Shown: positions 46,513 to 56,655 of the stretch, in pieces
Position numbering within the stretch: the first letter of the stretch is position 1
How the letters are laid out: the number at the start of each line of letters is the position of its first letter
Source of the DNA: Pontibacter roseus DSM 17521
Lineage (GTDB): Bacteria; Bacteroidota; Bacteroidia; Cytophagales; Hymenobacteraceae
Reading direction: 5' to 3'
DNA length: 64,000 nucleotides
Assembly: GCF_000373265.1 (NCBI RefSeq)
Contig: NZ_KB890766.1
Location: forward strand, 280,594-344,593
Position numbers and translations under genes: made by a program
The notes under the pieces: model-generated
Seen by the model: only the letters and a program-made list of their open reading frames with translations
Databases searched by the model: none
What the model was told of the DNA's origin: nothing

Positions 46513-46566
46513 CCCTAAATCTTCCTGGCCGGGTGGTTGGGACGAGAAAGTACCTATACATTGCGC

Positions 46567-47793
46567 ATGACAAAAAAAGCGGCCATACCATTTACCAATA
46601 CACTTCAGGAGAGCCCGTTCCACTCATTCTGGATGGCAGGGTTTGAATGCACTGACAAGCTCAACGCCTTTGGAAACAGAGTGGACTTTCTGTTGCTCAC
46701 CGGCCATTTGCAGCAATTACAACAGGATTACCAGAACCTGCTGGCATTTGGCATACGGACCGTGCGGGAAGGTATACGCTGGAGCCAAGTGGAGAAGCGC
46801 CCGTACGAATACGACTGGTCAACGGTGAGGCAGATGCTGCGCCAGGGCAAGGCGCTGGGCATACAGCAGGTATGGGACCTGTGCCATTTCGGTTTCCCGG
46901 ATGATTTGACACCCCTGCACCCTATGTTTGCCAGGCGCTTTGCGGCCATGTGCCGTGCCTTCGTCACGTTTTACCGTTCCAGTTACCCGGATGATATCCT
47001 GGTGATGACTCCCATCAACGAAGTGAGTTTTCTGTCCTGGCTTGGCGGTGATGTAAGGGGTACCTCCCCTTATTGCATGGGCCAAGGGTGGGAAGTGAAA
47101 TATGCCCTGATGCGCGCTTATATTGAGGGCGTGGCAGCCATGCGTGAGGTAGACCCTTCCGTGTTGATTATGACGACAGAGCCGTTGGTGAATGTGGTGG
47201 CACCGTTGGATGCGAATCTGGAGCAATTGGCCGAGGCACAACGCGCGCACGAGCTCCAGTACCAGGCAGTGGACATACTGTGCGGCCGCATCTGCCCGGA
47301 GTTAGGCGGTTCACCGGATTACCTGGACATAATTGGAGCCAATTATTATTATGACAACCAGTGGGAGGTAGGCACAAATGCCACCCTCAGTTGGGTGAAA
47401 GAGCACGCCGATGAGCGGTGGCGGGGTTTGAGGGATTTGCTGTCAGAGGTATACCATCGCTATGGCAAGCCCCTGGTACTGGCAGAGACAAGCCATCCAG
47501 GTATAGACCGTCCGCATTGGGTTCGCTTTGTGACGGAAGAATGCGCAGCCGTGGTTCAGGAAGGCATCCAGTTCTGGGGCATTTGCCTGTATCCAATCAT
47601 CGACCGCCCGGATTGGGACCGATTGGATTGCTGGCACAGGGCGGGACTCTGGGATGCGGAACAAGAACCTGGTGACAAGCCACAACGCATTCTGTGTGAG
47701 CCCTATGCCGAGGCGCTGCGGAAGGCGCAGGAAATAATGCGCAGGACGACACTTTCCGAAAGCTTATCTTTGCGACAGGCGCCTGTCACTTAA
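46567..47793 (+). CDS. Family 1-like glycosyl hydrolase
   Basis: 408 residues from ATG 46567; a TTG at 46537 would add 10 residues. The protein looks like a beta-glycosidase-type (GH1-like) barrel: TVREGIRWSQVEKRPYEYDW, WDLCHFGFPDDLTPLHP, the likely acid/base in TPINEVSFLSW (Glu152) and a likely nucleophile in LVLAETSHPG (Glu307). No signal peptide is seen, so it may act in the cytoplasm or have a different role. It sits between glf and a GH5-like gene, in a cluster of polysaccharide genes. The exact substrate is unknown. Confidence 0.75.
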   Translation: MTKKAAIPFTNTLQESPFHSFWMAGFECTDKLNAFGNRVDFLLLTGHLQQLQQDYQNLLAFGIRTVREGIRWSQVEKRPYEYDWSTVRQMLRQGKALGIQQVWDLCHFGFPDDLTPLHPMFARRFAAMCRAFVTFYRSSYPDDILVMTPINEVSFLSWLGGDVRGTSPYCMGQGWEVKYALMRAYIEGVAAMREVDPSVLIMTTEPLVNVVAPLDANLEQLAEAQRAHELQYQAVDILCGRICPELGGSPDYLDIIGANYYYDNQWEVGTNATLSWVKEHADERWRGLRDLLSEVYHRYGKPLVLAETSHPGIDRPHWVRFVTEECAAVVQEGIQFWGICLYPIIDRPDWDRLDCWHRAGLWDAEQEPGDKPQRILCEPYAEALRKAQEIMRRTTLSESLSLRQAPVT

Positions 47794-47914: not shown

Positions 47915-49459
47915 ATGGAGTACAAGCAGCTAAAATCAGAAGTTCCAGTAAAGTTAAAAGATAATGAAGCCATTAACGGCCTACTAACCCAAGAACTGGG
48001 ACTAGCGGGTAGCCACACCAAAACCACACAGGCTGAAGCCCACCAACACCATCTCCCCTGGATACAGGTTGCACCCGACGTACCTTATTTCATGACCGAG
48101 CACGGCAGAAGCTGGACACCCATTGGTCAGAACGACGCCATCACCTGGCCGGATTTTGCTAAGGCCTTTCGGCGCAAGGACCTGGCGCAGGTGGACGGGC
48201 ACCTGGCTTGGCTGGCGCAGCACGGAGTAACCTGCCTACGCTTCATGCTGGAGTACGCCCAGACCGAGAACAGGTATATTGAGCGGCCTATAGGAAAATT
48301 TGCACCCAACATGGTGCGACTCTGGGACGATTTGTTCGCCCTCTGTGCCAAGCACGGCCTGCGCATCCTGCTCACCCCCGTGGATACCTTCTGGATGTGG
48401 ATTAGGTGGAAGCACCACCCCTACAACCGGAAGAATGGCGGCCCCTGCGCTAAGCGCTCCGGCTGGCTCACCTGCCCCGATACCTTGCAAGCCATCAAAA
48501 GCCGTTTCACGTTCGCCATTGAGCGGTGGGGCGGCAGCGGCGTGCTCTTTGCATGGGACCTCTGGAACGAGATACACCCCGCCCATGCCGGTGGCCGCAC
48601 CGATGTGTTCACTGATTTCATCACTGAGCTGAGCACGCACGTGCGGGAAACGGAGCTGCGCCTCTATGGCCGGTCACACCCGCAGACCGTCTCCATCTAC
48701 GGTCCTCTGCTGCACGAGCGCCCCGATGTGGCCGATGCCATTTTCCGTCACCCGCTGCTGGACTTCGCCAGTACCCACTTCTACGATGCGGCCACCATCA
48801 ACCATCCTAAAAACACCGTGGCATCTGCCATCTGTACGGGCAAACTCACTCGAGAGGCGCTTCAGCACCTGCAGGACAGTCGCCCTTTTTTTGATAGCGA
48901 GCACGGACCCATTCATGCCTTCAAAGATTTGAAGCGCACGCTGCCGGAGCACTTCGATGACGAGTATTTCCGTCACATGCAGTGGGCGCACCTGGCTTCG
49001 GGCGGGGCCGGTGGCGGTATGCGTTGGCCTAACCGCCACCCGCACGTACTCACGCATGGCATGCGACTGGCCCAGAAAGGTATGGCGGCGTTTGTGAAAC
49101 TCATTGAATGGACCACTTTCCGAAGAAGGAACCTGAATGAGGAGATACGGGTGAGCGAGCCTGCCTTCGCGCCATTTGCCTGCGCCGACGATAGGCAGGC
49201 GGTGGTGTGGCTGTTGCGCCAGCAAAACCTGCGCAAGGACCGCACCATAAATCAGGAGGCAACTCCGTTACCGGTTAACATCACACTGCCAGGTATGGCG
49301 ACCGGTACCTATACCCTCACCACTTGGCATACCCACGAAGGCCGCGCTATCGCCACTCGCACCTTTACCCAGGATTCTGCAGGAGACATGCAGCTTGATT
49401 TGGGTATGGTGCAGGCTGATGTGGCTGTTGCACTGCGGCAGGTGTCGCCATTTGTATAG
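47915..49459 (+). CDS. GH5-like glycoside hydrolase (cellulase/mannanase-type barrel)
   Basis: 514 residues. After a polar N-terminus the barrel shows RFMLEYAQTENRYIERPIG, LLTPVDTFWMWIRWKHHPY, the acid/base in AWDLWNEIHPAHAG (Glu219) and a likely nucleophile in PFFDSEHGPIHAF (Glu329), a layout seen in GH5-like enzymes. A C-terminal beta-domain follows (TLPGMATGTYTLTTWHTHEGR). No signal peptide is visible. It ends the cluster 44022-49459 and shares a hairpin terminator with the convergent cphA gene. Confidence 0.78.
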   Translation: MEYKQLKSEVPVKLKDNEAINGLLTQELGLAGSHTKTTQAEAHQHHLPWIQVAPDVPYFMTEHGRSWTPIGQNDAITWPDFAKAFRRKDLAQVDGHLAWLAQHGVTCLRFMLEYAQTENRYIERPIGKFAPNMVRLWDDLFALCAKHGLRILLTPVDTFWMWIRWKHHPYNRKNGGPCAKRSGWLTCPDTLQAIKSRFTFAIERWGGSGVLFAWDLWNEIHPAHAGGRTDVFTDFITELSTHVRETELRLYGRSHPQTVSIYGPLLHERPDVADAIFRHPLLDFASTHFYDAATINHPKNTVASAICTGKLTREALQHLQDSRPFFDSEHGPIHAFKDLKRTLPEHFDDEYFRHMQWAHLASGGAGGGMRWPNRHPHVLTHGMRLAQKGMAAFVKLIEWTTFRRRNLNEEIRVSEPAFAPFACADDRQAVVWLLRQQNLRKDRTINQEATPLPVNITLPGMATGTYTLTTWHTHEGRAIATRTFTQDSAGDMQLDLGMVQADVAVALRQVSPFV

Positions 49460-49574: not shown

Positions 49575-52214
49575 TCAGGCTCCGTTCTGGTCCACAGGTT
49601 CCTGGCGGTGCTGGATGATGCGGAAGCTTTCCACCATCCTGATGGAGCCCGGTATATCCTCTGAGAAGAGGGCGATGAAAGCACCTTCCGGGGCATATTC
49701 CAGCGCGTGGGCTAAGGCTCTGGTCTCCTGCTGTATCTCCATCACCTTCATATCAGGTTTAACGGACATGATGCCTTGCTTCAACAGGTTGTTCAGCTCC
49801 TGTCCATCCTTGCCCCGCAAATCCTTGTCTTGCCGGATGATGATTTCATCAAAGGTCCTAGCCGCTATCCGTCCAAGTTCAATGGTGTCTTCATCCAGTC
49901 GGTCGCCTACACCTGCCACAATGCCTATTTTGTAGGTGGCCTGCACATTGGCCACAAAGTCGGCGATGGCCTCCATGCTGGCAATGTTGTGGGCGTAGTC
50001 TATGAGCACTTCGTAGCGTGGCAGTTTGAACAGGTTCATGCGGCCTGGTGTGGTCTCGGCAGAAGGCAGGAACGTGCGTAACGCTGTTTTGATTTCGGCA
50101 ATCTCGAAGTGGTTGATGTAGCCGGTGAGTGTGGCCGCCAACACGTTTTGTATGTTGAACCTGGCGCGCCCCCCAAAGGTCAGCGGGATATCAGCCACCC
50201 TGTCCACGCGTATTTTGTAGGTGTTCTTGAAGATGGAGATAAAGCCGTTCTCGAACACGGCAGCCAGCCCGCCCTTGGCGATGTGCTTGAGGATGCGCGG
50301 GTTGTTCTCGTCCAGGCTGAAGAATGCGACTTTGCAGTTGAGGCCTGTCGCCATGTCATATACCAGGTCATCGTCCGCGTTGAGTATGGCATACCCATTG
50401 GAGCACACCGTTCTGGGCACAACGGCTTTCACCTGCGCCATGTCGTCCACGGTATAGATGTCGCCGAGGCCCAGGTGGTCGGCCGACACGTTGGTCACGA
50501 TGCCGATGTCGCATTGCCTGAAAGCGAGTCCAGAGCGCAGCATACCGCCACGGGCGCACTCCAGCACGGCGTAATTCACGGTGGGGTCTTTGAGCACGAA
50601 CTCGCTGCTGTAGGAACCGGTCGTGTCGCCTTTGATGATTTTGTTGTCCTGTATGTAAATGCCATCCGTGGTGGTAAAGCCTACCTGGAAACCCTTGAAT
50701 TTGAGCATGTGGGCGACGAGTCGCGTGGTAGTGGTTTTGCCGTTGGTGCCCGTAATGGCCACGATAGGTATACGCGAGGGAGTGCCATGCGGGAAGAGCA
50801 TGTTGATGATGGGCTCTGCCACGTTGCGCGGCAGTCCTTCGGTAGGGGAGATGTGCATGCGCAGACCCGGCGCGGCGTTCACCTCAATCACGGCTCCCCG
50901 TGTCTCTGTCAAAGGTATGGCAATGTCGGTGGTCATCACATCAATGCCACACACATCCAAACCAATGATGCCAGCTATACGCTCGGCCATGAGCACGTTG
51001 TACGGATGCACTATATCAGTCACATCAGTGGCCGTGCCGCCTGTGCTGAGGTTGGCCGTGCTCTTCAGGTATAGCACCTCGCCGGCAGGCAGCACCGACT
51101 TCAAGGTGAGGCCCCTGTCTTTGAGTATGCTGCGGGTCTGCTTGTCTACCTTAATGTGTGTGAGTGCCTTTTCGTGGCCTATACCTCGGCGTGGGTCCTT
51201 GTTTACTTGCTTCACCAGCTGCTGTATGGTGGAAACCCCATCGCCGATGACCAGTGCCGGTGTGCGCTTGGCAGCGGCCGTGAACTTGCCATTGATGACG
51301 AGCAGGCGGTAGTCATCACCAACAATGAATTGCTCCACCATGACCTCGCGGGAATAGCGTTGCGCCTCTGCGAGGGATTTCAGGGAGTCTTTGCGGCAGC
51401 GTACGTTGATGCTGGCGCCCTTACCCTGGTTGCCACTCAGGGGTTTGATGACGACTGGAAATCCCAACTGCTCAATCGCCTCCTCCAACTCCTCTGGGTT
51501 AGTAACGATGCTACCCTGCGGCACCGGTATACCGGCTTCTTCCAATATCAGTTTGGTGGAGTTTTTATTACCGGCGTTCTCCACCGCGAAGAACGAGGTT
51601 TTGCTGGTCATAGCCGCCTGTATATGCTTCTGGTGGATGCCGTAACCAAGCTGAATCAGGCCACTGCGGTGGTTGTTGATGTAGGGTATGTTACGGCTGA
51701 CCGCCTCCGTCACGATGGCCTCGGTACTTGGTCCGAAGTATTCGTCTTCGCGAATCTGGTGCAGGCGGGCTATATCCTGCACGATGCTTGGCTTCTTGCC
51801 ACGTGAGAGCGCCTCGGTGATTCGGACGGCGGCATGGGCGGCAAACTCTCCCGCACGTTCCTGCTGGTAAGAGAATATCACGTAGTCGGTGCCCGTCTCC
51901 GGACCAGGGTATCGGCGGCCGTAGCCGCTGTCCATACCTGCCAGCGTCTGTAGCTCCAGGGCGATGTGCTGCACCACCTTGCTAAACGGCGTGCCTTCGC
52001 GCACAAGCTTAAAGAAGCCTCCTGGTGTACCGGTAGAGGAGCGGTGCTCATACATGCCTGGGAAGAGTTTTTCTAGGCGTTCCGGAAACTGCGGTACCTC
52101 ACTGGTGAGCACATCCTGCAGGTTCTCCAGGTCGAGCTTCATCACGATGATTTTAGGATGCTTGATGGACCAGTAGTTTGGCCCACGCATTATTCTTAGC
52201 TCTAATATTTTCAT
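49575..52214 (-). CDS. cphA: Cyanophycin synthetase
   Basis: 879 residues. Builds cyanophycin by adding Asp and Arg alternately, each step using ATP. The N-terminal half is an ATP-grasp domain (EEAGIPVPQGSIVTNPEELEE, VVIKPLSGNQGKGASINV, VEVNAAPGLRMHISPTEG near residue 450). The C-terminal half is a Mur-ligase domain with the P-loop VAITGTNGKTTTTRLVAHML near residue 490 and DYAHNIASMEAIADFV near 735. Its size and order fit CphA1. Cyanophycinase is at 34204, so the cell can store and recover nitrogen. It is monocistronic here. Confidence 0.95.
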   Translation of the reverse strand: MKILELRIMRGPNYWSIKHPKIIVMKLDLENLQDVLTSEVPQFPERLEKLFPGMYEHRSSTGTPGGFFKLVREGTPFSKVVQHIALELQTLAGMDSGYGRRYPGPETGTDYVIFSYQQERAGEFAAHAAVRITEALSRGKKPSIVQDIARLHQIREDEYFGPSTEAIVTEAVSRNIPYINNHRSGLIQLGYGIHQKHIQAAMTSKTSFFAVENAGNKNSTKLILEEAGIPVPQGSIVTNPEELEEAIEQLGFPVVIKPLSGNQGKGASINVRCRKDSLKSLAEAQRYSREVMVEQFIVGDDYRLLVINGKFTAAAKRTPALVIGDGVSTIQQLVKQVNKDPRRGIGHEKALTHIKVDKQTRSILKDRGLTLKSVLPAGEVLYLKSTANLSTGGTATDVTDIVHPYNVLMAERIAGIIGLDVCGIDVMTTDIAIPLTETRGAVIEVNAAPGLRMHISPTEGLPRNVAEPIINMLFPHGTPSRIPIVAITGTNGKTTTTRLVAHMLKFKGFQVGFTTTDGIYIQDNKIIKGDTTGSYSSEFVLKDPTVNYAVLECARGGMLRSGLAFRQCDIGIVTNVSADHLGLGDIYTVDDMAQVKAVVPRTVCSNGYAILNADDDLVYDMATGLNCKVAFFSLDENNPRILKHIAKGGLAAVFENGFISIFKNTYKIRVDRVADIPLTFGGRARFNIQNVLAATLTGYINHFEIAEIKTALRTFLPSAETTPGRMNLFKLPRYEVLIDYAHNIASMEAIADFVANVQATYKIGIVAGVGDRLDEDTIELGRIAARTFDEIIIRQDKDLRGKDGQELNNLLKQGIMSVKPDMKVMEIQQETRALAHALEYAPEGAFIALFSEDIPGSIRMVESFRIIQHRQEPVDQNGA

Positions 52215-52635
52215 GTGCTTTTATCATCAACTCAACGGGTGCCAAGTCGGTGCTGGCATCAGACAGTGCAGGAACAGGCACCCATTGCCCTGGACCTCAG
52301 GGATTGCGCTAAGAGTTTTTTACGAGTAAGACCGAAGTTTGGGAATGCCTGTGCCGGCTATTTTGGTTGAGGCTTTTATAAAATAAGTATTTAACCTGTG
52401 TGGCTGGTCAGGTTCGGTTGTTTAGGCCAGTATATACACCTACCAGCGGCTGCCAGATTGATTATGTATAGCAGTAGTGTTATATATAACTTATTGATTT
52501 ACTACAGGTTGTGTTATGTGTTGTGGGAAAATATAAGCTATAGGATATGCCTGTTTTTCTAAACCTGATGGGTGATAAAGCGTTTAATGACCATACGATT
52601 TGTTAAAATTTATCAACCTATTTAAACATAAAGCT
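52215..52635. other. AT-rich intergenic region upstream of the low-complexity protein gene
   Basis: About 420 bp, AT-rich towards its right end, with a perfect palindrome GTTATATATAAC at 52479-52490. It must contain the promoters of cphA and of the low-complexity protein gene. No gene or known RNA seen. Confidence 0.45.
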
Positions 52636-54126
52636 ATGGCAAGAGACTATCAGCGTAATTACGACGAAGGTGATTATGGTTCTTACAACCGCGACCGCTC
52701 CAACGATGAAGACAGAGGCTTCTTCGGCAGAATTGGCGAAACAATCAGCCATGCCTGGGAGAGAGTGACTGGTGGCGAAGAAGACAATGACAGAGACAGA
52801 AGAGAAGGTTCATACAGAAACTACAGTGGTGGCTCATCCAATTCGGGTAACTACGACAGAGGCGGCTACGGCTCCTCAAGCTATGGTTCTGGCTCTACAG
52901 GAGGCAGTGACTACAGCAGCCGGGGCTCCTCGTATGGTGGAGGCGGCAGTGGCCAGTATGGCAGCAGCTCTGGCTACGGCCAGTCAGGCAGAGAGCGCTA
53001 CGGCTCACAGGGCAGCAGCTACAGCGGCTCTGGCTCCATGGGCGGTAGCTCATACGGAGGCGGATATGGCTCCGGCTCTCAGGGTGGATATGGAAGCTCC
53101 CAAGGAGGATACGGTTCCTCACAAGGAGGTTATGGTTCAGGTTCACAAGGAAGCGGCTACGGCTCTGGCTCTATGAGCGGCTCCGGTAACTATGGTTCGT
53201 CCGGCTACGGCTCATCTGGTTATGGCTCGTCTGGCTATGGCTCCGGCTCACAGTCCGGTATGTCAGGCAGAGGCAGCTCAGGTGGTTATGGCGGTTCCTC
53301 ACAAGGAGGTTATGGCTCATCGGGTTATGGTTCCGGCTCGCAAGGCAGCAACTATGGTAGCTCCGGCTCCATGGGCGGAAGCCAGAACTACAGCGGCCGT
53401 TCCGGTTCTATGGGCGGAGGCTCAACTGGTGGCTACGGCTCTGGTTCACAAGGAGGCTACAGTGGTTCCGGCTACGGTGGCTCCAACTATAGCTCACATG
53501 GCGGTTACGGCGGCTCAGGCAGCTACGGCTCCATGAGTGGCGGCGATTACGGTTCAATGGGCGGTGACCAGGGCTCAAGAGGCAGCTCTTATGGTGGCTC
53601 GTCTTCAGGTTACGGCAGCGGCTCTATGGGCAGCGGCGGTTCCGGCTCCATGGGCGGTGGCTCCTTTGGCAGCGGTGCCGGTTCCTTTAGCGGCGGCACC
53701 TACAGCAACACAGGCTCAGGCGGCTACGGCTCCTCTCAAGGCAACTACGGTTCTTCGCAGGGAGGCTACGGTTCATCCGGTTCTATGGGCGGTGGTTATG
53801 GCTCGCAGAGTGGCTACGGCAGAAGCGGCTCCGACTATGGCTCGTCTGGCTATGGCCAGGGTTCTCAGTCCGGTATGTCAGGTAGAACCAGCTCTATGGG
53901 CAGCTCAGGTGGCTATGGTAGCTCCCAAGGCTATGGCAGCTCCTCACAAGGAGGCTACGGCTCATCCGGCTACGGTTCACAAGGCAGCTACGGTGGCTCT
54001 TCACAGGGCAGCTATGGCTCCTCTTCCGGCCGTGGCAGCAGCAGCCGTTCCCACAACGATGACAGCAACGAAAGAGCGCTGTTCTCACGCAACCGCCGCA
54101 ACGAAGGCAGCGATTATGACAGATAG
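52636..54126 (+). CDS. Gly/Ser/Tyr-rich low-complexity protein with FUS-like prion-like domain
   Basis: 496 residues from ATG 52636 (MARDYQRNYDEGDYGSY). A charged head (1 to about 58) includes an amphipathic stretch DRGFFGRIGETISHAWERV, reminiscent of the short SWFGD-type segment of small bacterial stress proteins. From about 59 to 465 the sequence is nearly all Gly, Ser and Tyr in GYGSS/GGYGSG units with occasional Gln, Met or Arg: each Tyr is flanked by Gly or Ser and the domain has almost no aliphatic residues and no Cys, as in the FUS/EWS low-complexity region. The last ~30 residues are charged (RSHNDDSNERALFSRNRR). No signal peptide is seen. A strong terminator follows. Function unknown; an in-frame TTG at 52600 was rejected as start. 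Confidence 0.85.
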   Translation: MARDYQRNYDEGDYGSYNRDRSNDEDRGFFGRIGETISHAWERVTGGEEDNDRDRREGSYRNYSGGSSNSGNYDRGGYGSSSYGSGSTGGSDYSSRGSSYGGGGSGQYGSSSGYGQSGRERYGSQGSSYSGSGSMGGSSYGGGYGSGSQGGYGSSQGGYGSSQGGYGSGSQGSGYGSGSMSGSGNYGSSGYGSSGYGSSGYGSGSQSGMSGRGSSGGYGGSSQGGYGSSGYGSGSQGSNYGSSGSMGGSQNYSGRSGSMGGGSTGGYGSGSQGGYSGSGYGGSNYSSHGGYGGSGSYGSMSGGDYGSMGGDQGSRGSSYGGSSSGYGSGSMGSGGSGSMGGGSFGSGAGSFSGGTYSNTGSGGYGSSQGNYGSSQGGYGSSGSMGGGYGSQSGYGRSGSDYGSSGYGQGSQSGMSGRTSSMGSSGGYGSSQGYGSSSQGGYGSSGYGSQGSYGGSSQGSYGSSSGRGSSSRSHNDDSNERALFSRNRRNEGSDYDR

Positions 54127-54153
54127 AACATAATGTTTGAGTATATTTGAAGG

Positions 54154-54186
54154 AAAAAGGGCCGCAACTAGCGGCCCTTTTTTTGT
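54154..54186 (+). terminator. Rho-independent terminator after the low-complexity protein gene
   Basis: AAAGGGCCGC (54156-54165), loop AACTA, GCGGCCCTTT then a long T run. About 30 bp after the stop. Confidence 0.88.
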
Positions 54187-54217
54187 ATTAGCTCAGTAAA
54201 TGGTGTAGGTATGGCTG

Positions 54218-54565
54218 CTACTTCACTACCAGCTGTTTTGCCTCCTCTACTGTGGCGGCCGATTTGATGATGCGGTCCAGCCCCAGAATCTCGAACACGT
54301 TCCGGATTTTCGGTTTCATGTCCACCATCACCAGTTGTTGGTCTTTGAGGTTGCAGGCCTGAAAAGCGGCCAGCAGCACGCCTAACCCGGCAGAGGAGAT
54401 ATAAAGGAGACCGCTGCAGTCAATCAGGACATAATCCTTTTCTGCTGCGATGGCTTGTTCCAGTGCATGGTCTGCGTAAACGGATGAACTGGCGTCAAGC
54501 TCCCCCTCAAACTTCAGGATGGTGCCGTCATGCAGTTCAGTCGTGGTAACATGGAATGTTTTCAT
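54218..54565 (-). CDS. STAS-domain protein (anti-sigma factor antagonist-like)
   Basis: 115 residues forming a single STAS domain: TILKFEGELDASSSVYADHALEQAI, VLIDCSGLLYISSAGLGVLLAAF with the likely phospho-Ser57/58, and LVMVDMKPKIRNVFEILGLDRII. STAS proteins of this kind bind anti-sigma kinases when unphosphorylated. No kinase or phosphatase gene is nearby. A second STAS gene lies 65 bp upstream on the same strand. Confidence 0.92.
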   Translation of the reverse strand: MKTFHVTTTELHDGTILKFEGELDASSSVYADHALEQAIAAEKDYVLIDCSGLLYISSAGLGVLLAAFQACNLKDQQLVMVDMKPKIRNVFEILGLDRIIKSAATVEEAKQLVVK

Positions 54566-54630
54566 AACGTAGGCATTTTACATCAATCACTTCCGCCTTC
54601 TAATGGCGGCTCACTAAATCAACCCGCATT

Positions 54631-54972
54631 TCACCTGTGCTTGTAGTGCAGGTAAGCCTCTTTGATACCGGGTACTATTTTCAGATGCGGGGTAAGCCCA
54701 GCCTGCTCCAGTTTTTGCTGTACCACCGGCTGCAGGTTGTAAAGCACTAAACTGATACCAAGTGTATCTATAGTGCCTAAATACGAAAGTATTGACCGCA
54801 TGGCTGAGGTAGAGATGGAGGTGATTCCCGCACAGTCTACCCAGATGTTGTGGTGAGAGGAGAAGTTCGCCTTTTGAATCGCCTCATCAAACGAGGCTAC
54901 AACGTGTTGGTCCAGTTCTCCCTGGCACTGGATGACTACACTCTCCGGCATTTCCTGTATCGAAATTCCCAT
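54631..54972 (-). CDS. STAS-domain protein, divergent phospho-site
   Basis: 113 residues; QCQGELDQHVVASFDEAIQKANF and IWVDCAGITSISTSAMRSILSYL are STAS-like, but the usual SSAG/DSSG site reads STSAM (Ser54-Thr55-Ser56), so phosphorylation may fall on Thr or be altered. It precedes the STAS gene at 54218 in a two-gene operon. One member may be a modified competitor of the other; that is inference. Confidence 0.87.
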   Translation of the reverse strand: MGISIQEMPESVVIQCQGELDQHVVASFDEAIQKANFSSHHNIWVDCAGITSISTSAMRSILSYLGTIDTLGISLVLYNLQPVVQQKLEQAGLTPHLKIVPGIKEAYLHYKHR

Positions 54973-55445
54973 AACTCGCTTATTTAAGACCTTTTAGCAT
55001 ATCAGAGCATCAGGTATGACTGCCTTGTTTCGAAGGCCGAAGGTATAGCTTTAAAGTGTTGCCTATACTCAGATTTGAAGTAGAAAAAATGTCAGCTAGT
55101 TAAGAATCAGGCCAATACAAATCTAACCATAATTAAGGTTCTACCAGATGATATAAACACGTATAGTTATATAGTAGAAAATACTTAAATGTTCGGGGCA
55201 AGCCTTGTTTTTTAACGAAGAAACCCACCTGCCATTGCAGTTTTGGTTTTTATCATGAAAATTACCCATTCTTTTGGACCTTGGACGCGTCTTAGAGGCC
55301 AGGGGATAGGAGTTACACCGCACTAGGTGGCAACGCTCCTGAAAGGCTTTTACGATAACAATATAAAGGGAAAATTGAGAACCAAAGGACTGCACTATTT
55401 ATCCCAAATGGCTTCATCAGCTAATTTGTACACGACATCTATAGC
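54973..55445. other. Gene-free region upstream of the response regulator
   Basis: About 470 bp with no convincing gene, AT-rich in places, with one AGGTATAG octamer near 55041. It should hold the promoters of the STAS pair (minus) and the response regulator (plus). Confidence 0.45.
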
Positions 55446-56105
55446 ATGATTGATGTAATAATCACGGACGACCACACAATTATCCGGGATGGGGTAAAGG
55501 CCCTGTTGAACGGGCATCCCTCTATCAGAATAGTGGGTGAGGCCGCAAATGGAGACCAACTCTTGAACTTGCTGGCTACTGTGCATGCCGATGTGGTGCT
55601 AATGGATATTGGTTTGCCTGGCAAGGATGGCTTTGAACTGACCAGAGAGATAGTGGAGCAATATCCGAACGTGAAAGTGTTGGTGCTCTCGGTGCTCGAC
55701 GACATAAGCCATGTGAAAAGGATGATGGAAATCGGGGCCTCAGGCTACATGCTCAAAACCGTAAGCAGGGACGAACTTTGCCACGGGCTCCTGCTTGTGG
55801 CTTCTGGGAGCCGGTATATCTGTTCTGACATAGCGCTGCACCTCCTCCGCAAGGTACAGTCTTATAACTTGGCCCAACCAGTGCTGCAGCCAACCGCTGA
55901 GCAGCAACGGGAGCTTTCGAAGCGAGAGCTGGAGGTGCTGGCGCTCATCGGCGAGGGCTTCACGAATGCCGAAATTGCTGAACGGTTGTTTACCAGCAAG
56001 CGTACTGTAGAAACGCACCGACAGAACCTGCTGGAGAAGACCAGCTCACGCAATACCGCTATGCTGGTAAGGTATGCGCTGCAGCGAGGGCTCATCAACA
56101 GTTAG
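55446..56105 (+). CDS. NarL/FixJ-family response regulator, orphan
   Basis: 219 residues. The receiver domain starts MIDVIITDDHTIIRDGV (acidic pair Asp8/Asp9) with phosphoacceptor Asp54 in VVLMDIGLPGKDGF. The C-terminal LuxR-type HTH is complete: LSKRELEVLALIGEGFTNAEIAERLFTSKRTVETHRQNLLEK. No histidine kinase gene lies nearby. It should bind DNA as a dimer when phosphorylated. Targets are unknown; its neighbours are the STAS pair and the glucan phosphorylase gene. A terminator follows. Confidence 0.94.
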   Translation: MIDVIITDDHTIIRDGVKALLNGHPSIRIVGEAANGDQLLNLLATVHADVVLMDIGLPGKDGFELTREIVEQYPNVKVLVLSVLDDISHVKRMMEIGASGYMLKTVSRDELCHGLLLVASGSRYICSDIALHLLRKVQSYNLAQPVLQPTAEQQRELSKRELEVLALIGEGFTNAEIAERLFTSKRTVETHRQNLLEKTSSRNTAMLVRYALQRGLINS

Positions 56106-56130
56106 GGTTAAGACAAATATATTTGATACA

Positions 56131-56157
56131 AGCGCCGCCTCCCAGCGGCGCTTTTTC
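56131..56157 (+). terminator. Rho-independent terminator after the response regulator
   Basis: Arms AGCGCCGC (56131-56138) and GCGGCGCT (56145-56152), loop of six bases, then TTTTTC. Confidence 0.85.
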
Positions 56158-56655
56158 ATTTTCCGCTTGTCTACCAAATATGCTAGGCAACTGGTCAGGA
56201 GACTAATTCTTTGGCGATAGTTTAGATGAAGGAGGGTTACACTAACGGAACTCAAATGGAGACAGTCTGGGCATCGGGTCGAGAAACCTATACTTGGCAC
56301 CTGGGCTCACCAAGAAGGCCGGCCGTGTAAGTATAAGCCAAACTGGGTTCAAAACCAATACAGCAGCAGGACGGGTAGGGACAGGTTTTTAGTACTATAT
56401 CGTTAACAAAAAGGGAGTGAAGCTTGTATAGGAACTTTGGTTGTCTCAAATTGCAGGTTGAAAGCAGCGAGACAAATACGGATTTTACTATACGTACAAG
56501 ATACGTTGTTTTATATAAATCGAGATTTGGGGCGCTGTTATAGGAGGGGAATTGAATTATCGCAAGTTCAGGTATGGCCTGTGCGGATACTGGAGAGGCG
56601 TGCAAACGAACTGCATTCAGGCCCTCATTTATGATTAAATTTAGGTTTTTAGATT
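56158..56655. other. Gene-free region upstream of the glucan phosphorylase gene
   Basis: About 500 bp with no coding frame worth naming and no recognised RNA. AT-rich towards 56400-56530. Confidence 0.4.

Follow-up and report, generated by a model that had tools for sequence, protein, structure and literature searches.

A Tyr-rich Gly/Ser low-complexity protein of Pontibacter and a putative ECF-type promoter shared with a ribosome hibernation factor

The locus analysed here raises the question of what role a bacterium may have for a long chain built almost entirely of glycine, serine and tyrosine, which recalls the FUS-type Tyr sticker proteins studied mostly in eukaryotes. The gene lies in a window (the whole stretch of DNA that was analysed) of 64,000 nucleotides from Pontibacter roseus DSM 17521, and the features of the locus are collected in Table 1. 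An initial annotation, made from the sequence, had described a 496-residue frame dominated by Gly, Ser and Tyr over residues ~59-465, with a charged head containing an amphipathic helix and a charged tail, and this description held up. Residues 59-465 consist of 38.8% Gly, 32.4% Ser, 12.0% Tyr and 5.4% Gln (G+S+Y 83.3%), the head (residues 1-58) carries 10 positive and 16 negative charges and the tail (residues 466-496) 7 and 6, respectively, and the hydrophobic moment reaches 0.58 for the 18-residue stretches starting at residues 27, 28 and 29. As had also been proposed, no signal peptide is visible when the charged N terminus is read, and the protein is probably cytoplasmic. A secreted or surface-layer protein was considered and rejected, as on the same reading the charged N terminus gives no hint of secretion.

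Table 1. Features of the locus and of related P. roseus genes (positions in the window unless another locus is named).
Feature	Position	Strand	Basis
Divergent neighbour, cyanophycin synthetase cphA-A, without promoter motif	49575..52214	-	TIGR02068, 1168 bits vs cut-off 850
Putative ECF-sigma-like promoter AACC-N15-CGTTTAA, 74 nt 5' of ATG	52562..52587	+	conserved upstream of orthologues
Gly/Ser/Tyr low-complexity protein, 496 aa	52636..54126	+	ORF; orthologues in 21/50 genus genomes
Conserved amphipathic module, residues 27-46 (RGFFGRIGETISHAWERVTG), remote SWFGD-module relative	52714..52773	+	profiles, helix prediction
Gly/Ser/Tyr low-complexity region, residues 59-465	52810..54030	+	composition
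Low-complexity stretch, residues 255-300, with island GGYGSG..GGYSGSGYGGSNYSS.GGYGG common to part of orthologues	53398..53535	+	alignment; codon positions
Second island, residues 322-353 (GSGSMGGGSFGSGAGSFSGG), in many but not all orthologues	53599..53694	+	alignment; codon positions
Charged tail, residues 466-496	54031..54123	+	composition
Intrinsic-terminator-like hairpin and T run	54152..54184	+	-22.4 kcal/mol, z -5.16
Convergent neighbour, STAS protein, anti-sigma factor antagonist type	54218..54565	-	PF01740; TIGR00377 72.6 bits vs cut-off 53.45
Second STAS protein	54631..54972	-	PF01740
LuxR-type response regulator, conserved neighbour	55446..56105	+	PF00072 + PF00196; 13/15 other loci
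P. roseus ribosome hibernation factor	L145 / L040:883-1188, C5:211882		PF02482

Overlapping ORFs are present in other frames at 52636-54126. Across all pairs of 17 orthologues, variation at the first, second and third codon positions was 0.31, 0.21 and 0.55 in the head, and 0.37, 0.36, 0.62 and 0.29, 0.30, 0.61 in the two low-complexity islands; the third positions being the most variable throughout, the 496-aa frame is supported despite these ORFs. The initial annotation had made its reading depend on the frame being kept between close relatives, and it is kept in 21 of 50 genomes of the genus. The strong terminator-like hairpin after the gene suggests a single transcription unit. Neither the Pfam search (E<=10) nor the search of PDB chains by sequence matched the 496-aa protein, NCBIfam (E<=10) gave no match for the whole protein or for its first 70 residues, and Rfam gave none over 51500-56500. 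By a simple charge-hydropathy index all 17 orthologues fall in the disordered class.

A head profile run against 204 genomes of the family, a homologue search that the initial annotation had suggested, brought up the orthologues (17 profile rows match by construction). The profile recovered 20 same-genus genomes at E below 1e-19, and one further genome (G214) has a degenerate orthologue of 285 aa recognised by its place beside cphA-A, giving 21 of 50 Pontibacter genomes, P. roseus included. Among them are Pontibacter vulgaris and P. beigongshangensis, whose proteins read identical to those of G217 and G025. By these comparisons the gene is a real and conserved one of Pontibacter; as 29 of the 50 genomes have no detected orthologue, the genus can do without it. 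The 17 compared orthologues range from 278 to 496 aa in length and from 49.7% to 76.5% in G+S+Y, and Tyr stays at 8.3-11.8% while length and G+S shift. In one genome (G029) a second low-complexity gene (L037:10883-11530) directly follows the orthologue, and its GYSGAAFGGSNYSAHGGFGG stretch resembles an island of the window protein.

Conservation within the protein is highest in an amphipathic module of 20 residues close to the N terminus, GFFxRIGxxISxAWERVTG. Six head residues are invariant in the 17 orthologues (M1, G28, F29, G34, S38 and W41), five of them within the module, and AlphaFold2 predicts a helix at residues 29-45 with low confidence (mean pLDDT 58.4; mean 70 for residues 31-40). 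A second protein of P. roseus, 311 aa long and likewise rich in Gly, Ser and Tyr, has two SWFGD domains (NF033157, 92.9 bits; G000:C5:220716-221210, L002). This family was found in 37/37 genus genomes searched and in 0/22 genomes of other families of the order, and a phylum-wide draw of 148 genomes returned it once, in P. roseus itself. Counterparts with the ends of the SWFGD protein (MRN... and ...PPY.YG) occur in two other genera (L066 in g24; L069, L070, L072 and L073 in g26), where they carry, for example, GFFDRIGSGIKEAWNSITGDDD in place of the GFFDRAGDEVKSWFGDEE of the Pontibacter SWFGD protein. The out-of-genus comparison was made with these five proteins, matches in g23 being left out. 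In hhalign, the head module matched the C-terminal modules of the five counterparts at 99.2% (score 78.4; maximum 16.4 in 150 column shuffles) and 46 SWFGD modules at 90.6% (score 28.7; maximum 15.9 in 150 column shuffles). As both scores lie above all shuffles, we take the head module for a diverged form of the SWFGD-type module placed at the N terminus. The 496-aa protein lies below the 35-bit membership threshold of NF033157, with no match at E<=10. From these alignments we conclude that it is a remote relative of the NCBIfam SWFGD proteins and, by the curated cut-off, not a member of NF033157. This gives SWFGD-type proteins, on which a search of open-licence literature found nothing relevant, a first evolutionary context. 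Gly/Ser/Tyr composition is itself a poor guide to ancestry.

The pairing of a -35 AAC with a -10 CGT box is typical of ECF sigma factors, and a candidate promoter of this kind precedes the gene (Table 1). The motif AAC-N16-CGTT was present 68-89 nt 5' of the ATG in 20/20 orthologue upstream regions (one with a second site at 134) and also upstream of the G214 gene, so that what reads as the fixed-spacing -35 AAC/-10 CGT promoter feature of ECF-sigma regulon members precedes the orthologue in 21/21 genomes; the expected frequency is 0.019 per 300 nt. When the upstream regions were aligned, it was among the few stretches common to all, the intergenic region being otherwise mostly poorly conserved. 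Its exact form, AACC-N15-CGTTTAA, has two sites in the P. roseus genome and the reversed control one. The motif was found in 0/35 regions upstream of SWFGD-type genes (Pontibacter supplying 30 of these), and at cphA-A none of 25 loci had it within 300 nt upstream (30 taken, 25 with a recognised start). ECF factors are described as typically stress-induced and as recognising -35 and -10 motifs (PMC10880074).

The P. roseus genome contains 15 AACC-N15-CGTTWA sites against 15 of the reversed pattern and G002, another genome with the gene, 14 against 29, so that there was no genome-wide enrichment over the reversed control in either; since the reversed pattern is at least as frequent, the number of sites alone proves nothing. 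We then asked what lies behind them, counting a gene as downstream when it had a sufficient coding score (trained on the P. roseus genome) and a start 25-250 nt downstream. A scored gene followed 11/15 P. roseus sites (one site also lying inside another ORF) and 5/15 reversed sites (two inside ORFs), a difference that is only moderate. Low-complexity ORFs are judged by a looser threshold, without which the window gene and its orthologue in G002 would fail (scores 0.03 and 0.04); the six remaining disordered proteins clear the general one. In G002, 5/14 sites have a scored gene and 9/14 have none, the five genes being the orthologue of the Tyr-rich gene, the hibernation factor and three disordered proteins. 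Two of these three, L163 and L168, share clear islands with P. roseus L147 and L146 when the sequences are read, and can be recognised as their counterparts. The P. roseus sites likewise precede three further disordered proteins (L139:1562-2266, L146:689-1459 and L147:1562-2233), which are rich in Tyr, Arg, Asp and Asn (Tyr 8.7-9.4%, GRAVY -1.6 to -2.04) and match no Pfam family at 0.001. Other P. roseus sites lie before a PF02482 protein, a DUF892 protein, a TerB protein and a fatty-acid hydroxylase, before proteins named by eye as secreted-looking, metallo-beta-lactamase-like and small lipoprotein-like, and, by the plain ORF rule only, before an FGE-sulfatase-type protein. A further motif site, at L037:15634, is followed by a small ORF of 74 aa, predicted to be of a membrane type.

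The PF02482 protein, which we take to be a ribosome hibernation factor by function, has matches in 41/50 genus genomes. AAC-N16-CGTT lies 70-109 nt before its ATG in 30/30 loci checked, in genomes with and without the Tyr-rich gene, and we read this as a conserved regulon containing a dormancy gene of known function. The case for the regulon rests on conservation of the motif at two genes together with the identity of the genes downstream, and sharing of a promoter type by the Tyr-rich gene and the hibernation factor is well supported by the conserved sites. The gene of the hibernation factor is found ~9 kb from that of the SWFGD protein, an arrangement that coordinates also show for G008, G009 and others. 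A desiccation or stress role had been guessed initially, and the guess gains support from the promoter. The cyanophycin neighbour has no motif before it.

The neighbours named in the initial annotation, a cyanophycin synthetase, STAS proteins and a response regulator, were verified by TIGR02068, PF01740, and PF00072 with PF00196. Of 15 loci from other genomes, 12 include cphA-A, 12 a STAS gene and 13 the response regulator; going by coordinates, 18 of the 21 genomes that carry the gene have cphA-A as its divergent neighbour. The anti-sigma factor antagonist score of the conserved STAS neighbour would fit a sigma-switch locus, and proves nothing about the sigma factor acting at the promoter. 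P. roseus has a second cyanophycin synthetase copy (G000:C2:119700-122315), 69% identical to that in the window, and 37/50 genus genomes have two matches. Further off, 46537-47793 and 47915-49459 look glycoside-hydrolase-like by eye, with no Pfam match at 1e-5.

To see how far the likeness to FUS and EWS extends, we compared Tyr context and spacing with composition-preserving shuffles. Within residues 59-465, 35 of 49 Tyr stand in (G/S)Y(G/S), for which shuffles average 24.9 and 12/2000 reach 35, and the Tyr are more evenly spaced than in 1998/2000 shuffles. Counts of 26, 35 and 41 such motifs occur in three of the 17 orthologues (window protein included); each of the remaining 14 has 7-16, at a G+S+Y content of 49.7-64.9%. 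The FUS/EWS-type Tyr pattern noted initially therefore stands for the window protein in both context and spacing, but not as the defining trait of the family, with three of 17 orthologues rich in the motif and Gln at 5.4%. Steady Tyr content together with the small number of motif-rich orthologues indicates that the family trait is scattered Tyr in a disordered chain; the near-pure Gly/Ser/Tyr form is an extreme within a lineage. For FUS itself, Tyr in (G/S)Y(G/S) are described as promoting phase separation, their number setting the effect on the threshold (PMC5704491).

Our working proposal, tentative and put at a little under an even chance, is a disordered protein of a stress or dormancy regulon whose Tyr-mediated self-association would form protective assemblies. 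An ECF-type sigma factor, inferred from the promoter, would respond to a presumed stress and switch on the Tyr-rich gene together with the genes of the ribosome hibernation factor and of further disordered proteins rich in Tyr and charge. The amphipathic helix, short and close to the N terminus, may act as a targeting or oligomerising handle or anchor, and the long Gly/Ser chain with about 50 Tyr could behave as a sticker-and-spacer polymer that forms a condensate or gel on drying or entry into dormancy, so shielding the cell contents. A bolder form, which we consider quite unlikely, would be a bacterial counterpart of stress granules, in which one ECF-type regulon supplies the hibernation factor and at least four Tyr-rich low-complexity proteins that would jointly turn the cytoplasm, with its hibernating ribosomes, into a reversible protective gel when the cell dries or becomes dormant, with FUS-like Tyr chemistry that evolved independently.

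The same regulon could instead supply a soluble, hydrophilin-like protectant, a hydrated and non-condensing filler or water-retaining shield in which the Tyr are not stickers. Hydrophilins are defined by Gly above 6%, GRAVY below -1 and mean hydrophilicity above 1 (PMC4190154). The window protein agrees on two of these three (Gly 33.9%, GRAVY -1.14), GRAVY is below -1 in 17/17 orthologues and the promoter is of a stress type. Its mean Hopp-Woods hydrophilicity, however, is 0.09 where above 1 is asked (Hopp-Woods being assumed to be the intended scale), although the hydrophilin set of the paper that gives these criteria is by its own account also below 1 (PMC4190154), and evenly spaced Tyr at 11% would be unusual for a pure hydrophilin; we regard such a protectant as unlikely, if well short of negligible. 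A different use of the head would be to lay the amphipathic helix on the inner face of the membrane, where the low-complexity part as a brush or gel would stabilise the membrane during drying. The hydrophobic moment, the invariant residues and the predicted helix speak for such a coat, as does the fatty-acid hydroxylase behind one motif site, but this is a short helix with Gly within it and acidic residues behind it, and the confidence of its model is low, which leaves this reading improbable.

Adjacency to cphA-A suggests a protein that coats or nucleates cyanophycin granules, with Tyr touching the arginine side chains of the polymer, as a phasin does on PHB. Besides the neighbourhood in 18/21 genomes, two genomes in which the other cphA copy alone turned up, G033 and G006 (the latter 87% complete), have an Asparaginase_2 gene in the divergent position. 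Its G033 copy matches PF01112 and scores 260.6 bits with the beta-aspartyl-peptidase model NF007589, under the cut-off of 567. By coordinates, however, an asparaginase-type gene sits just downstream of cphA-A in 12 genomes, so that loss of cphA-A accounts for the adjacency in G033 and G006, which does not count as independent evidence. The gene is moreover kept without cphA-A (G033, G006) or away from it (G029), the promoter motif is missing from all cphA-A loci scored, and cphA is found in 50/50 genomes against 21 for the Tyr-rich gene. Among the open-licence literature matches listed, no title concerned a cyanophycin granule coat protein, and we hold this role to be rather improbable. The Gly/Ser/Tyr part might also be a drifting tract, expanded near-neutrally by repeat slippage, with only the head module mattering. 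The spread of length and composition among the orthologues would agree with this, but two islands within the tract have third codon positions as the most variable (0.62 and 0.61 vs 0.29-0.37), Tyr content is steady, codons for Gly, Ser and Tyr are mixed, and DNA repeats are weak (TRF gives 5 rows for the whole window, every one within the Tyr-rich gene, with a best score of 73 and at most 3.6 copies), so that drift seems very improbable.

Both disordered stress proteins and SWFGD-type proteins belong to kinds already known. The open-licence literature contained, among the matches listed, no SWFGD-related Tyr-sticker protein sharing a regulon with ribosome hibernation, no description of an ECF-type regulon in Pontibacter, and nothing on ribosome hibernation under ECF control in Bacteroidetes stationary phase or on glycine-rich BON domain proteins in desiccation. 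By title, the matches for ECF, glycine-rich or desiccation work in Hymenobacter were off the subject, and those for Pontibacter intrinsically disordered proteins concerned amyloid/curli or biofilm. The findings point to an ECF-type regulon in Pontibacter, and a bacterial family with FUS-like grammar, linked by its conserved promoter to ribosome hibernation and to further disordered proteins, would offer a genetically simple setting in which to study a survival role of such sequences.

Compared with hydrophilins and bacterial desiccation proteins, of which those of A. baumannii were reportedly described by Green et al. in 2022, the protein is similarly disordered and Gly-rich with GRAVY below -1 and probable induction by stress, but it is Tyr-rich and its hydrophilicity of 0.09 is under the criterion. 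With the SWFGD proteins (NF033157) it shares Gly/Ser/Tyr-rich low complexity and a short GFF-x-R-xG module followed by acidic residues; it differs from them in having neither the SWFGD motif nor an NF033157 match, in the place of the module, which here lies close to the N terminus and in SWFGD proteins mid-chain and towards the C terminus, and in its promoter, as AAC-N16-CGTT was found in none of the 35 SWFGD-type upstream regions. The counterparts in g24 and g26 come close to its head module with their C-terminal GFFxRIGxxIKxAWNSI.GDDD (in the g26 proteins), but their module lies near the C-terminal end and both of their ends are those of the SWFGD protein. In relation to the FET prion-like domains (FUS, EWS), Gln is low here (5.4%), FUS being much richer in it, and the window protein has no Pfam RNA-binding domain and no PDB sequence match. 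No homology to FUS was found by Pfam or by PDB sequence search and none is indicated, so the likeness may be taken as a fair analogy: what the two have in common is a Gly/Ser/Tyr sticker-and-spacer composition, here with 35 (G/S)Y(G/S) motifs.
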